Of a DNA stretch of 64,000 nucleotides, positions 39,333 through 46,485 are shown one piece after another. Location: the NCBI GenBank assembly GCA_945881865.1, contig CAMCVK010000007.1, forward strand, positions 1 to 64,000, written 5' to 3'. Source of the DNA: Fimbriimonas ginsengisoli Gsoil 348. GTDB lineage: Bacteria > Armatimonadota > Fimbriimonadia > Fimbriimonadales > Fimbriimonadaceae. The notes under the pieces were generated by a model, which saw only the letters and a program-made list of their open reading frames with translations, ran no database searches and had not been told where the DNA came from. Position 1 is the first letter of the stretch; each line of letters starts with the position of its first letter. The translations under genes and the position numbers were made by a program.

Positions 39333-40307
39333 ATGAAGATCGGAATTTTTACTGCCCTATTTGGAGACAAGACCCGGCCCGAGGCCCTCGACATCATCGC
39401 CGCCGAAGGCATCGAAGCGGTTGAGTTTGGCGCCGGTGCCTACCCAGGCGCCGCCCACCTTGAGGTCGAGAAGCTTCTGGAGAGCAAGGAAGCCCGCGAA
39501 GCCCTGCTGAAGGATGTGCACGACCGCGGCCTCATGATTTCGGCCATTTCCTGCCACGGCAACGCACTTCACCCGAACAAGGACATCGCCGCGGACCATC
39601 ACCAGGCTTTTGTTAACAGCGTCAAGCTGGCGAATGCGCTCGACGTGCCGGTCGTCAACGGATTCTCCGGTTGCCCGGGCGACCACGAGACCGCCATCAA
39701 CCCGAACTGGGTCACGTGCGCCTGGCCGGATGAGTTCCGCGACGTGCTGAACTGGCAGTGGAGCGAGAAAGTTATCCCCTACTGGACCGAGCAGAACGCC
39801 TTCCTCAAGGCCCACAACGTTAAGTACGGCATCGAGATGCACCCTGGCTTCGTTGCCTACTCCAACGACACCTTGTTAAAGCTTCGGCACGCGGCCGGCG
39901 AGCAGATCGGCGCAAACTTCGACCCTTCGCACCTTTGGTGGCAGGGGATTGATCCGATCGCGGCGGTCCGACAGATCGCCGAAGAAGGCGCGCTTTTCCA
40001 CGTTCACGCAAAGGACACGCGCATCGACCCGATCAACTCTGGTCTCAACGGCAACCTCGACACCAAGAGCTACGGCGACATTTCGAAGCGATCGTGGGTG
40101 TTCCGCTCGGTTGGCTACGGCCACGGCATCGAGTGGTGGAAGGATTTCGCAAGCGTGTTGCGCACGTTCGGCTATGACTACGTGCTTTCGATCGAGCACG
40201 AAGACGGCCTGATGAGCCCGATGGAAGGCCTGCGCAAGGCGGTTTCCGTTCTTAAGCAGTCGGTGATCTCAGAATCGGCGGGCGAAATGTTCTGGGCGAA
40301 GGACTGA
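39333..40307 (+). CDS. Sugar phosphate isomerase/epimerase, TIM barrel (3)
   Basis: A 324-aa AP-endonuclease-2-like TIM barrel. The opening is KIGIFTALFGDKTRPEALDIIAAEGIEAVEFGAGAYPGAAH; metal-binding residues are the Glu in YGIEMHPGF, the Asp in NFDPSHLWWQGIDP, and the His in LFHVHAKDTR, with Glu in SIEHEDGLM. The Cys in ISCHGNAL and the NWVTC motif suggest a specific substrate. A Shine-Dalgarno GGAG sits eight bases upstream. Its last 88 bases are repeated at 41617-41704, after the M23 gene. Confidence 0.82.
   Translation: MKIGIFTALFGDKTRPEALDIIAAEGIEAVEFGAGAYPGAAHLEVEKLLESKEAREALLKDVHDRGLMISAISCHGNALHPNKDIAADHHQAFVNSVKLANALDVPVVNGFSGCPGDHETAINPNWVTCAWPDEFRDVLNWQWSEKVIPYWTEQNAFLKAHNVKYGIEMHPGFVAYSNDTLLKLRHAAGEQIGANFDPSHLWWQGIDPIAAVRQIAEEGALFHVHAKDTRIDPINSGLNGNLDTKSYGDISKRSWVFRSVGYGHGIEWWKDFASVLRTFGYDYVLSIEHEDGLMSPMEGLRKAVSVLKQSVISESAGEMFWAKD
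40216..40303 (+). repeat. Direct repeat copy A (end of the isomerase gene)
   Basis: An 88-base block that encodes the last residues of the isomerase. A second copy follows at 41617-41704 with two mismatches. Together they flank the M23 gene like target duplications or attachment sites. Confidence 0.8.
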
Positions 40308-40319
40308 CATCGAGAAGAG

Positions 40320-40349
40320 TGCCCCTGCCAAAACCACTTTGCAGGGGCA
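40320..40349 (+). terminator. Hairpin after the isomerase gene
   Basis: TGCCCCTGC (40320-40328) and its complement (40341-40349) form a nine-base stem with a 12-base loop, followed by TTCTTG. It lies 13 bases past the isomerase stop. Confidence 0.55.
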
Positions 40350-40375
40350 TTCTTGACACGCGGCCTCAACGAGCT

Positions 40376-41521
40376 TCAGCTCCTTTTCTGGTACCAGGCG
40401 ACTCCTTCGTACCGCCAGACCGAATTCCCGTGGCGTAACTCGCTGAAGTCTAACGTAAAGAGGTGCACGCCGGATTCTTTATTGCAATAGCGATGCATTT
40501 TTGCATACTGTGAAGGGCCTGTTTGACCTGATGATGGATCCTTTTCGAAAGCGTAGAAGCGATTTGTCTCCAGGACATACTCATCGTTACCGTTCCCAAG
40601 CTCACTAAAGTTCGTGGTGTAGTGATGGAAGCCGGTAAGTCGACCAACATACCTGTATACCCGAACAGTACCTGGCACTTGGAATAGAAATACTTTGCCT
40701 TGATCGGACTCTCGCACATAGTCGCCGTTACCGTTAGCTCCAAGTTCGTTGACATCTGTGGTGTAAAAATAGTCACCATTAGTATTGCTGCGATATCGGA
40801 GTAGAATCGCCTCGTCTTTTCCGGCAGCGGGACGATGGTTGTTCAGGAATGACATCGGATCGATAAATCCTCGCTTCTCCAGCCGGCCCTTGTTTTCTGC
40901 CTCGAAAGTGAACCAGTCTGGCGGGAGGCCATCTAGAACCTTTCCCCGTCCCCAACCAATGGATGCCTTCAGCTTCCCAATTTTCGAATCCCCTCGTCGG
41001 TAGGTCATGCCCAAAACCGAGGTGCTTACCACCGGACTTACTTCGTTAATGGCAAAATGAAGGTGGTCACCTCCTCCGGGGTAGCTCATGACGCTACCTA
41101 TCAGCTGGCCTGCGAAGACGTCGTCCCCTTTGTTTACCCGTGGGCTGACATGTCCGTAGTAAGCGTAAGCAGTCTTCCCTTGCCCAGTATCAGAATTAAC
41201 TTTCACTTCAATGACGACTAAGCTATTTTCAGCTGATGCATTCCGTGTTGTATAGATTACAGTTCCTCCGGAAATTGCATAAGCAGGCGAACCTTTCTTC
41301 ATGTCTACAGAATAATCAGTGCCTAAATGATAATAACTGTCAAAATATTGATGTTTATGGGTTGCCAGCCAATTGTTGCCGCGTAAGTTCTCTTTGCCAG
41401 ACGGGGTTGGATAGTACAGGCCGCCATCTCGGACCAGCCTTTGAGCACTTGCGGTCCCGGAGAGGATCAGAAGAAGCAAGAGGAGGGCCAGACGCGCTGT
41501 GCTAGAAAAACAACTTGACAT
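40376..41521 (-). CDS. Secreted M23 peptidase with DUF5648 repeats (foreign-looking)
   Basis: A 381-aa protein. The signal peptide is SSTARLALLLLLLILSGTASA; an M23-type LytM domain follows (about 60-190) with HLGTDYSVD (H-x3-D metal site) and HLHFAI (second His pair), which would cut peptidoglycan or other peptides. The C-terminus (about 235-380) is three DUF5648-like repeats, as in LRYRSNTNGDYFYTTDVNELG and HRYCNKESGVHLFTLDFSEL, probably binding sugar or surface. The gene is AT-rich: several 60-base lines count 35-47% GC against about 60% in neighbours. It lies between two copies of the isomerase 3' end, so it was probably inserted. Confidence 0.82.
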   Translation of the reverse strand: MSSCFSSTARLALLLLLLILSGTASAQRLVRDGGLYYPTPSGKENLRGNNWLATHKHQYFDSYYHLGTDYSVDMKKGSPAYAISGGTVIYTTRNASAENSLVVIEVKVNSDTGQGKTAYAYYGHVSPRVNKGDDVFAGQLIGSVMSYPGGGDHLHFAINEVSPVVSTSVLGMTYRRGDSKIGKLKASIGWGRGKVLDGLPPDWFTFEAENKGRLEKRGFIDPMSFLNNHRPAAGKDEAILLRYRSNTNGDYFYTTDVNELGANGNGDYVRESDQGKVFLFQVPGTVRVYRYVGRLTGFHHYTTNFSELGNGNDEYVLETNRFYAFEKDPSSGQTGPSQYAKMHRYCNKESGVHLFTLDFSELRHGNSVWRYEGVAWYQKRS

Positions 41522-41616
41522 ACTTGCCGAGACGTATGAAATTGAATGCTGGTTCCATAGAATTTATTCAATTGTTAAGGGAAGCTTTTGGCCCGCGTGA
41601 GCAAAAAATCCACTAT

Positions 41617-41704
41617 GCCCGATGGGAGGCCTGCGCAAGGCGGTTTCCGTTCTTAAGCAGTCGGTGATCTCAGAATCGGCCGGCGAAATGTTCTGGGCGA
41701 AGGA
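41617..41704 (+). repeat. Direct repeat copy B (displaced isomerase 3' end)
   Basis: This 88-base block is 98% identical to 40216-40303, with an A-to-G and a G-to-C change. It keeps the reading frame of the last 28 codons but ends in GAT TAA instead of GAC TGA, so it is a remnant of an isomerase 3' end without its gene. Confidence 0.8.
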
Positions 41705-41940
41705 TTAACGCTTAGGGCGAGCCGCCCGAAGAAAATCGGGTCCCGTAGACGCCGGTTGGTTTTTGCCGGCGCTCAGGAGTGGGAGAAAGGCGGGAGCAGA
41801 GCTCCCGCACTCCAAATCGGATTCAGACTCAAAACCGGCCCAGCCCGAGAGGCTGGGGCTATACGCTTCGCGCTTTGTTCCGGTGAGACCGAACGGCTGT
41901 AGCCGACGCCCCTGTGGCGTCGGGGTTGCATTCCCAGTGA
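41705..41940. other. Hairpin-rich non-coding stretch
   Basis: No gene is seen in 41522-41940 apart from the repeat copy. At least four perfect stems occur in 180 bases: CGCCGG at 41750 with 41766-41771, CGGGAGC/GCTCCCG (41791-41807) inside an outer GGAGTG/CACTCC pair, CCCAGCC/GGCTGGG (41839-41857), and CCGACGCC/GGCGTCGG (41903-41923). It could be a cluster of REP-like palindromes, the 3' end of a structured RNA, or stacked terminators. Confidence 0.5.
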
Positions 41941-42216
41941 CTAGCCGCCGCCGGGAGTCGGCGCGCCGCCACGATCGCCAAGGACATCGGCGGCCTTCAC
42001 GCCGGTCTCGCTCTCGATCTTCTGATATTCTTTGTCTTTCTCAGCTTGCGGCATCGGGCTGCTAGCAATCGCTCGAATCTTATCTTCGGGCTTCATTTTT
42101 GCGATCGCATTCTTAGCATCGTCACCCGACATACCTGCCGGCTGTCCGCCGGCATCGCAGCCAACAAGACCAAGGCTCGCGACAACCGCGACCAATAAGG
42201 CTAGTTTGATTTTCAT
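41941..42216 (-). CDS. Small lipoprotein paired with a prepilin
   Basis: A 91-aa lipoprotein: MKIKLALLVAVVASLGLVGCDAGG with the lipobox Cys at residue 20, then a short Lys/Asp-rich helical part and a Gly/Pro tail (GDRGGAPTPGGG). No domain can be named. It lies 80 bases downstream of the prepilin gene on the same strand. A similar small lipoprotein follows the other minus-strand prepilin at 58151-58351, suggesting that these are partner proteins. Confidence 0.7.
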   Translation of the reverse strand: MKIKLALLVAVVASLGLVGCDAGGQPAGMSGDDAKNAIAKMKPEDKIRAIASSPMPQAEKDKEYQKIESETGVKAADVLGDRGGAPTPGGG

Positions 42217-42296
42217 TTTTCTAAAGTGGGTTCGGAAAGAACCGAGTTGCAGAGCTTACGCTCCGCAACTCGGTTGAGGGTCGAGGATCTACCGGA

Positions 42297-43271
<975 letters not shown>

Positions 43272-43284
43272 GGATATCCTGGTG

Positions 43285-45396
43285 TCAAAACGTAGCGTGA
43301 GAATGGCGAATGGTCTGGGCCGATGCCGAAGGATCGGACCGGACGGAATGGTGAGCTTTCTGACCCGTTGGCAGCAAAACTGCCGATTGGCCAGGATTCA
43401 GAAGGAATGAAATTGTGTTGTCCTGCAGCGTGACCGCGACGCCGGAGAGGGCGTCTTGCCAGCGAAGCGATCGGGCCGGCAGGGTGACCGTCTGCGGCTT
43501 CTTACCGGTGTTTAGCACGACCCACGCCTGGTTCTTGCCGAGTGTTCGCCGGTATCGCACCAAGCCCGTCGTTTGACTTCCAGAAACGTCCGAGAGTTCG
43601 CCTTCTTGCAGAGCCGGGTTGCTTGCCCGCACTTTAGCGAGTTTTCGGTAGTAACGCAGCATCGGATTGTCATCCGAGGCCAGATCCCAGCGCATCCCGC
43701 GCCGGTTGTCGGGGTCTCGGTCGCCCTCCATGCCCAGCTCCTCGCCATAGTAAATGCTTGGAACGCCCGGCCAGGTGAACTGGACCGTTGCCGCAAGCAT
43801 CTGCTTGGTTTGGTCACCTTTAGCGAGCGTTAGGAATCGCGCGGTGTCGTGGCTGCTGATCAGCAGCATGAGATTTCGCGAGACCTGCGGAGCGTAGGAG
43901 TTGTAAATCGAGTTCAACCGCTGGGCGAAGGTGTCGGCCGATCCGTTGCCGTAGGCAAAGTACTGCAGGCAAGCCTCGCGGAACTGATAGCCCATCATGG
44001 AGTCCCACTGGTCGCCCTTAAGCCAAGGGTCTCCGTCGCCCCAGTGCTCGCCGAGGATCCAAAAGTTCGGATCCATCGTCTTGGTCGACTTGCGGAATGC
44101 CCGCCAGAATCGCATGTCCACTTCGTTTGCCACATCGAGCCGCGCCCCGACGAGATTCGGTGCCAGCGACCGCCAGAACGGCACGATCGAAAGCATGTGC
44201 TCTTTGGCCGGCGCGTACATCAAGTCCACCTTTGGCATACTGGGGAACCCAAACCACGCTTCGTAGGGCGGATTGTCCTGCACGACCACGGGGTAGCGCT
44301 TGATGAAGTACCACTTCGTGTAGGGCGAGGCTTCCCCGCGCTCCATGATGTCTTTGAAGGCAAAGAACCGAGGCGAAGTGTGGTTGAAGGCAAAGTCCAT
44401 CACGATGCCCATCTTGCGGTTGGCCATGGCTTTCGCCATGTCGGCGAAGTCGGCGTTCGTCCCAAACTCGGGATCGACAAGCTTGAAGGAGTCGGCCTCG
44501 TAACGATGGTTACTGGGCGATGCGAAGATCGGATTGAAGTAAATCGTCTGCACGCCGAGCGAAGCAAGGTAGCCCAGATTCTGCGCCACACCGATGGCGT
44601 CTCCGCCGAATCGGTTGCCATAGGTTGGCACTCCGTCCCACGGCATCACGTTGGCCGGGTCGTTCGCTTTGCTTCCGTTGGCAAAGCGGTCTGGGAAGAT
44701 TTGGTACATCGGGCCGCGCGAGATCTGCTGCGGCACAATGAACGGTCGGAACGACTTCGCTTCGAGCCGGAATGGCTTTACGACGCCGAGCCCGCCGTCC
44801 CCAAACATCGTGCCCTTTCCGCCAGATTGAAGCCGGAACCGATAGGTGAAGTCAGATTTTCGATCCCAGGGAATCGATGCGCCGTAGTGGGCATAGAGCT
44901 CATCGGTCGCCAGTTGCTTCATCGCATGGGTCTTGCCCGCGCTGATCAACTGCACGCCCGAAACGTCGCCGGATCGAACCCTGAGTTGAACCGAAAGTTG
45001 GCCGCGGTCGTAATTCAGTTCCGGAACCTGCTGATCGTGTCGGAGCGCGCTTCTCGCCACAATTCCGTCATTCGGCTTCGCAGGGGTAGCGTAGTCCGCC
45101 GGCGTGACGCTCCGCAGCGAATTCTGGTTTCCGTTGCCATCATCGATCGCCGTCGCCTTAGGGTCGGTAAGCCACATCTCCCCGTTCACGACGAACTTGT
45201 AGAAGCTGCGGCCGTACGGCAGTCGAACGGAAACCGACCAAGTTCGCCCATCCGTGTCCAATTTCATCGGCGTGGCATCCTTGTTCCAGTTGTTGAAAGA
45301 GCCAGCAATGTGGACCGTTCGCGCAGGGGTCGATGGCTCAAACCGGAACGACTCCAGACGCGTATCCGCCTGATAGAGGGCAAGCATCGGAATCAT
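43285..45396 (-). CDS. GH13 alpha-amylase family protein with N-terminal CBM48-like domain
   Basis: A 703-aa glycoside hydrolase. The N-terminal E-set/CBM48-like domain (about 10-85) has HIAGSFNNWNKDATPM and SFYKFVVNGEMW. The catalytic barrel (about 230-600) carries the GH13 motifs: GARLDVANEVD (nucleophile Asp), ILGEHWGD (acid/base Glu), LLISSHDTARFL (third acid), and MGIVMDFAFNHTS. This is the neopullulanase/cyclomaltodextrinase-like layout, likely cleaving maltodextrins. There is little sign of a signal peptide. GGAGG lies a few bases before the ATG at 45396, and the gene overlaps the lacI-like gene by four bases, so it should be under its control. Confidence 0.88.
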   Translation of the reverse strand: MIPMLALYQADTRLESFRFEPSTPARTVHIAGSFNNWNKDATPMKLDTDGRTWSVSVRLPYGRSFYKFVVNGEMWLTDPKATAIDDGNGNQNSLRSVTPADYATPAKPNDGIVARSALRHDQQVPELNYDRGQLSVQLRVRSGDVSGVQLISAGKTHAMKQLATDELYAHYGASIPWDRKSDFTYRFRLQSGGKGTMFGDGGLGVVKPFRLEAKSFRPFIVPQQISRGPMYQIFPDRFANGSKANDPANVMPWDGVPTYGNRFGGDAIGVAQNLGYLASLGVQTIYFNPIFASPSNHRYEADSFKLVDPEFGTNADFADMAKAMANRKMGIVMDFAFNHTSPRFFAFKDIMERGEASPYTKWYFIKRYPVVVQDNPPYEAWFGFPSMPKVDLMYAPAKEHMLSIVPFWRSLAPNLVGARLDVANEVDMRFWRAFRKSTKTMDPNFWILGEHWGDGDPWLKGDQWDSMMGYQFREACLQYFAYGNGSADTFAQRLNSIYNSYAPQVSRNLMLLISSHDTARFLTLAKGDQTKQMLAATVQFTWPGVPSIYYGEELGMEGDRDPDNRRGMRWDLASDDNPMLRYYRKLAKVRASNPALQEGELSDVSGSQTTGLVRYRRTLGKNQAWVVLNTGKKPQTVTLPARSLRWQDALSGVAVTLQDNTISFLLNPGQSAVLLPTGQKAHHSVRSDPSASAQTIRHSHATF

Positions 45397-46412
45397 GCGG
45401 CCTCCATCCGCTGGCTGCTGCCGCGAACGCGAAGTTCGGTTGGAATGATGAGTCGATGTGGACCGTCAATCGGCCGCTCTTCGATGATTCTGAGTAGGCG
45501 GTCGCAGGCGGCCTTTACCAATTCGGGCATCCGCAGGCTAACCGACGACAGGCCGCGATCAATCAGATCGCACAGGTTGGAATCGTTAAAGCTCACCAGC
45601 CCGAGATCGTTCGGGAGCCTGAGTCCGGCTTTTCGGGCGGCACCGACGACGCCCATCGCCATGAAATCGTCGAGAACAACCATCGCATCCGGTCTCGAGC
45701 AGTCGGCAAGAATCGTCTGGGCGACTTCCTGTGCCGCGCGTGAACCAAAGTCGCCGTGCCAGATCAAGTGGTCGTGCTGCCGGCCACGAATCGCTCGCTG
45801 ATAACCGGCAATTCGGTCGTCGCTCACCGTCACGCCACGCCGCGCACCAAGGATGCCGACCCGGCGGAAGCCTTGATCCAGCAGGTGACGGGTCGCCAGC
45901 TCGGCGGCCGCAACGTTGTCGTTATCGACCGAGCTGATCTCGTCGCCGGTGAGCGGGTTGCCGATGAGCACGAACGGAAACTTGTCTTGCTGCAAGCGGG
46001 CGATGCGATGGTCTCGCGCCTCGGATTCAACAAGGATTAGGCCATCGACGCGGCGCGACCGCAGCATGTCATCGTAAATTGCGGTCTGGCCCGCTTCGCT
46101 CGTAACCATGTCCAGGCAAAGGTGATAGGGATGGTCGCGGAGAAAGTCGAGAATGTCGGCCACTAATGCCGAGAAGAACGGGTCCTCGCCGAGGCCACCC
46201 GCCGGTCGGTTGAGAACAAGACCAATCAGGCCGGTGCGTCGGCTACGGAGTTGGCGGGCCCGGACATCCGGCTGGTAGTTGTGGGCGCGCATCACCTCGG
46301 TCACGCGCTTGCGGATTTCCGGCTCGACTTTTTCGTCGCCGGCAAGAACACGCGATACGGTTGCCTGCGATACGCTGGCAATTTTCGCTATGTCTTGTTG
46401 CGTGACCCTCAT
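45393..46412 (-). CDS. LacI-family transcriptional regulator
   Basis: A 339-aa repressor. The DNA-binding domain MRVTQQDIAKIASVSQATVSRVLAGDEKVEPEIRKRVTEVMRAHNYQPDVRARQLRS is of the LacI/CcpA type; the ligand domain (periplasmic-binding fold, about 60-339) follows with VDGLILVE and SFNDSNLCDLIDRGLSSV. The ATG at 46412 was chosen because the HTH begins there; the ORF is open 24 codons upstream but that part overlaps the operators. Two palindromes of LacI type lie in its upstream region. It probably responds to a maltose-type sugar and controls the amylase operon and itself. Confidence 0.88.
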   Translation of the reverse strand: MRVTQQDIAKIASVSQATVSRVLAGDEKVEPEIRKRVTEVMRAHNYQPDVRARQLRSRRTGLIGLVLNRPAGGLGEDPFFSALVADILDFLRDHPYHLCLDMVTSEAGQTAIYDDMLRSRRVDGLILVESEARDHRIARLQQDKFPFVLIGNPLTGDEISSVDNDNVAAAELATRHLLDQGFRRVGILGARRGVTVSDDRIAGYQRAIRGRQHDHLIWHGDFGSRAAQEVAQTILADCSRPDAMVVLDDFMAMGVVGAARKAGLRLPNDLGLVSFNDSNLCDLIDRGLSSVSLRMPELVKAACDRLLRIIEERPIDGPHRLIIPTELRVRGSSQRMEAA

Positions 46413-46437
46413 TGGTTTAGCTCCGGTTCTCAACGGT

Positions 46438-46453
46438 GAGAATACGAATTCAC
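46438..46453. promoter_or_regulatory. LacI-type operator (O1)
   Basis: GAGAATACGAATTCAC is centred on a CG at 46445-46446, with imperfect arms (two mismatches). Its inner part AATACGAATT is identical to the second site. Confidence 0.5.
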
Positions 46454-46460
46454 TGGTGAA

Positions 46461-46466
46461 TATAAC
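46461..46466 (-). promoter_or_regulatory. Possible -10 element between the two operators
   Basis: On the minus strand TTATAT/TATATT lies between the two palindromes, about 50 bases before the lacI-like ATG. A repressor on either site would cover it, which suggests autoregulation. Confidence 0.3.
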
Positions 46467-46467
46467 A

Positions 46468-46485
46468 CGTGAATACGAATTCACG
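46468..46485. promoter_or_regulatory. LacI-type operator (O2)
   Basis: CGTGAATACGAATTCACG is a near-perfect 18-base palindrome with the central CG typical of LacI-family operators. Its centre is 31 bp from that of O1, about three turns of the helix. Confidence 0.65.

Follow-up and report, generated by a model that had tools for sequence, protein, structure and literature searches.

A low-GC M23/DUF5648 gene between two copies of an isomerase gene end in Fimbriimonas ginsengisoli

Gene-end duplications and DUF5648 proteins described to date

Foreign DNA lying between direct copies of a gene end is known from Campbell-type single-crossover integration, which needs no recombinase and leaves a short duplication. 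When a non-replicating plasmid carrying the end of lacZ was conjugated into E. coli, 56 of the 60 selected recombinants had duplicated part of that end; the duplications were 109-950 bp long in the 14 recombinants that were sequenced, and were attributed to one crossover of a circle from which part of the homology was missing (PMC3240628). The locus of Fimbriimonas ginsengisoli Gsoil 348 described here has the same layout, but it is natural, its duplication measures 88-93 bp, and the two copies have diverged. It also recalls the elements that tyrosine recombinases insert at the 3' ends of tRNA and protein genes, where the gene end is restored and the old end is displaced to the far side; unlike them, it has no integrase and a single gene, and neither another site nor another insertion at the isomerase was found. 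The gene enclosed by the repeats has its nearest described counterparts in the secreted antimicrobial proteins of Bacteroidales that bear a C-terminal DUF5648 domain, a domain proposed to recognise surface glycans (PMC12853789). The product shares this domain and is likewise predicted to be secreted, whereas its effector half is predicted to be an M23 peptidase and not a pore-forming domain. This half is comparable with an M23 lytic endopeptidase of known structure (PDB 8s3m), whose catalytic M23 domain aligns over residues 64-158 (E 8e-7), while the remainder of the protein has no alignment.

The repeated isomerase end and its surroundings

The window, that is the whole stretch of DNA analysed, covers positions 1 to 64,000 of a 173-kb contig from a 3.2-Mb genome that is 98% complete, is distributed over 26 contigs and, by its nearest relatives, belongs to the Fimbriimonadaceae (Armatimonadota). 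An intact gene on the forward strand (39333-40307) encodes a sugar-phosphate isomerase/epimerase-like protein of 324 amino acids with an AP_endonuc_2 TIM barrel (PF01261, E 2e-26). Its orthologues in the genus are 85% identical, a value that also holds for the nearest relative among the genomes compared. The original prediction, that the final 88 bp of this gene (40216-40303) have a second copy at 41617-41704, with two mismatches and a different stop codon, was confirmed to the base. With the stop codon included, the repeat extends to 93 bp with four differences (96% identity; spacing 1401). Copy A (40216-40308) ends in TGA and copy B (41617-41709), which lies on the same strand and has no gene body, ends in TAA. 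Homology ends abruptly at both sides of the repeat: the DNA ahead of copy B does not resemble the isomerase gene, and the similarity of the two ends does not continue past the stop. A whole-genome search with the repeat returned two matches only (E 4e-40 and 2e-37), far above chance, and no further copy of the repeat or of the insert occurs in the 3.2-Mb genome or in the genus. Of 80 related isomerase loci, none has a duplicated end.

The differences between the copies had been predicted to be silent, which holds for three of the four (GCG/GCC, GAC/GAT and TGA/TAA); the first mismatch, an A to G change at the tenth base, replaces Glu by Gly in copy B. This Glu belongs to an M-E-G motif, is invariant in 62 of 62 related isomerase genes and is present in copy A. 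Random changes are expected to be silent in 22% of cases, so that at least three silent changes in four has a P of ~0.04; the four differences are modest evidence that the two ends may be real alleles, not a gene end and its decaying copy. Seven nucleotides past the stop of copy A, in the space that separates the isomerase gene from the convergent M23 gene, begins a long hairpin of the terminator type without a U tract (40315-40354; -26 kcal/mol, z -4.5), and a hairpin is found at the same position in the two nearest relatives. Because copy A keeps the invariant Glu and is followed by a native-type hairpin, we consider it to be the working end of the gene and copy B to be an orphan.

Copy B is adjoined by a dispersed palindromic intergenic repeat of two modules (41733-41922), which has ~40 further sites in the genome and for which Rfam gives no match at the gathering threshold. 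Beyond it, a conserved host cluster on the reverse strand (41941-46484) encodes a small lipoprotein-like protein, a prepilin, an amylase-family enzyme and a LacI regulator, in an order shared by relatives in the genus. Synteny breaks at this locus: both the trpB-M48 cluster on the left and the prepilin-amylase-LacI cluster on the right are conserved, the isomerase is found elsewhere in the genus, and in the nearest relative compared the gene order around the isomerase differs from that of the window. Similar gene-end repeats were looked for in 257 kb of this genome and in 0.94 Mb of additional loci, most of them from relatives. Repeats of other kinds occur in the genome. At 6074-15181 of contig C4 (L187), two copies of a 48-bp sequence similar to the 3' end of a tRNA lie 7.8 kb apart, the first of them after an integrase gene, and the DNA between them holds a CusCBA/Czc-type efflux module that has no integrase of its own. 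At 139465-146240 of contig C7 (L182, L183), several copies of repeats of 60-200 bp surround a 940-aa open reading frame.

The M23/DUF5648 gene and its foreign character

Between the two copies lies a single gene on the reverse strand (40376-41521), encoding 381 amino acids with an apparent signal peptide, as read from the sequence, followed by an M23 metallopeptidase and C-terminal DUF5648 repeats. Profile searches agree with the predicted domain composition, both for M23 (PF01551, E 1.6e-11, 44.7 bits against a cut-off of 28.7) and for DUF5648 (PF18885, E 4e-15, 56.7 bits against a cut-off of 25), and the metal-binding pattern H-x3-D ... H-x-H is present in the translation (HLGTD ... YGH ... 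HLH). The low GC content that had been counted by hand is equally clear in the computed values: 49.0% for the insert, 49.3% for the gene and 40% for the 95 bp upstream of it (41522-41616, reverse strand, 60% AT), which run up to the abrupt junction with copy B, against a mean of 58.9% (sd 2.8%) in windows of equal size across the 173-kb contig. GC3 is likewise low, at 0.50 versus 0.70 +/- 0.08. Another low-GC stretch (48-50%), at 68300-69100 of contig C7 (L179), has no flanking direct repeats.

No full-length homologue of the M23 protein was found in 60 related genomes, and none among the GTDB contigs, viral contigs, phages and plasmids searched. In PHROGs the M23 part falls among phage endolysins and related peptidases, but phage records give no match to the protein. 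In the phylum, only 5 of 291 genomes have a DUF5648 domain. Searches for defence systems and Rfam families gave no matches, and an AlphaFold2 model computed without an alignment (mean pLDDT 33) was too poor and was left out of the interpretation. Given the low GC and GC3, the absence of homologues in relatives and the rarity of DUF5648, the acquisition of the M23 gene is well supported. To judge from its domains, the most likely role of the product is that of a secreted peptidoglycan hydrolase with a glycan-binding domain for targeting, and it could perhaps act as an antibacterial weapon.

Single crossover, site-specific integration and other origins

The original prediction had read the locus as integration into the 3' end of a protein-coding gene, in the manner of integrative elements. 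The acquired insert does adjoin the isomerase 3' end, which is intact, and, as had been noted, neither the insert nor its flanks contain a recombinase; an integrase-type element is not supported, since there is neither a recombinase nor a second site. What the data support is an insertion, most likely through ordinary DNA exchange rather than by a new mobile element. In the reading that we place first, though finely balanced, a fragment from a sister lineage was captured without an integrase by a single crossover in the isomerase end. Such a fragment of ~1.4 kb, which would start 88 bp ahead of the isomerase stop and take in the hairpin and the convergent M23/DUF5648 gene, would have entered the cell and joined the chromosome by homologous recombination. 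In the simplest form of this scheme, the fragment would have been circularised, its ends joined at 41616/41617, and a single crossover of the circle within the 88-bp homology would have left the isomerase complete, copy A bringing the donor stop TGA and the donor hairpin and the old recipient end (copy B, TAA) being displaced to the far side. A direct repeat of the shared homology with no recombinase is what a single crossover is expected to leave, and is what we observe. The repeat also ends just past the stop codon, at the point from which two strains would be expected to differ in their intergenic DNA. That one copy arrived with the insert, as predicted, is consistent with ends that look like two diverged alleles, the crossover being the presumed route. 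The host encodes ComEC and DprA, which would permit the uptake of free DNA, both being widespread and no proof of competence. Against the crossover, the 88 bp fall slightly below the range of the lacZ experiment, no donor type with the isomerase beside an M23 gene was found in the 60 relatives or the GTDB contigs, and no empty site was found in relatives, of which the nearest has an isomerase 85% identical in a different gene order.

An integrase acting in trans, or lost since, would give the same picture as a crossover. The insert would then be a non-autonomous or decayed element with the isomerase 3' end as its attachment site, served by a tyrosine recombinase encoded elsewhere or since deleted, an origin that we consider doubtful. 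As with integration at tRNA and gene ends, direct repeats of a gene end do flank the insert, the isomerase has its end restored, with silent changes and another stop codon, and the orphan lies on the far side; four tyrosine recombinases were found in the same genome, one of them beside the integrase-less efflux module between two 48-bp repeats mentioned above. Yet these four are on other contigs, and there is no recombinase within the 1.4 kb, whose only gene is the M23 gene, or in the rest of the window. The 88-bp site is unique but for its own duplicate, the 80 related loci (none from a close relative, and with differing gene order) have single ends, no integrase among those listed in the 60 relatives adjoins the isomerase, and the isomerase end is carried as an attachment site in no viral contig searched. 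Single crossover is therefore ranked first and site-specific integration second, on account of the missing recombinase, the lack of duplicated ends and of listed integrases at the isomerases of relatives, the E. coli precedent and the presence of ComEC and DprA. The more specific idea of a very small integrase-less cassette, with one secreted lytic enzyme, a protein-gene 3' end as attachment site and a recombinase in trans, appears highly improbable.

Local rearrangement, in which deletion reduced an earlier duplicate or second copy of the isomerase to its last 88 bp and the M23 gene was acquired separately between the ends, is unlikely. The synteny breakpoint, with conserved clusters on either side and the isomerase elsewhere in relatives, would suit it, as would the dispersed repeats adjoining copy B, but several events would be needed, the differences in a neutral orphan should not be chiefly silent, and the DNA directly after the stops of the two ends is unrelated. 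Somewhat less likely again is a chimera, in which a metagenome assembly joined the isomerase ends of two strain variants. In its favour, the named relatives were assembled from metagenomes, the present genome is split into 26 contigs and the two ends differ as those of strains might. Yet the misjoin would have to fall at 41616/41617, between flanks that share no sequence and within a 173-kb contig, and a simple k-mer overlap artefact would not give copies with mismatches.

If the single-crossover reading is correct, the locus would give a clean natural example, from a phylum that has received little study, of gene gain by short-homology single crossover without damage to the target gene. The gene gained, which joins an M23 peptidase to a DUF5648 domain, would encode a plausible antibacterial enzyme, with a domain (DUF5648) that is rare in that phylum. 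The same case would also warn against reading every gene-end duplication as the mark of an integrative element.
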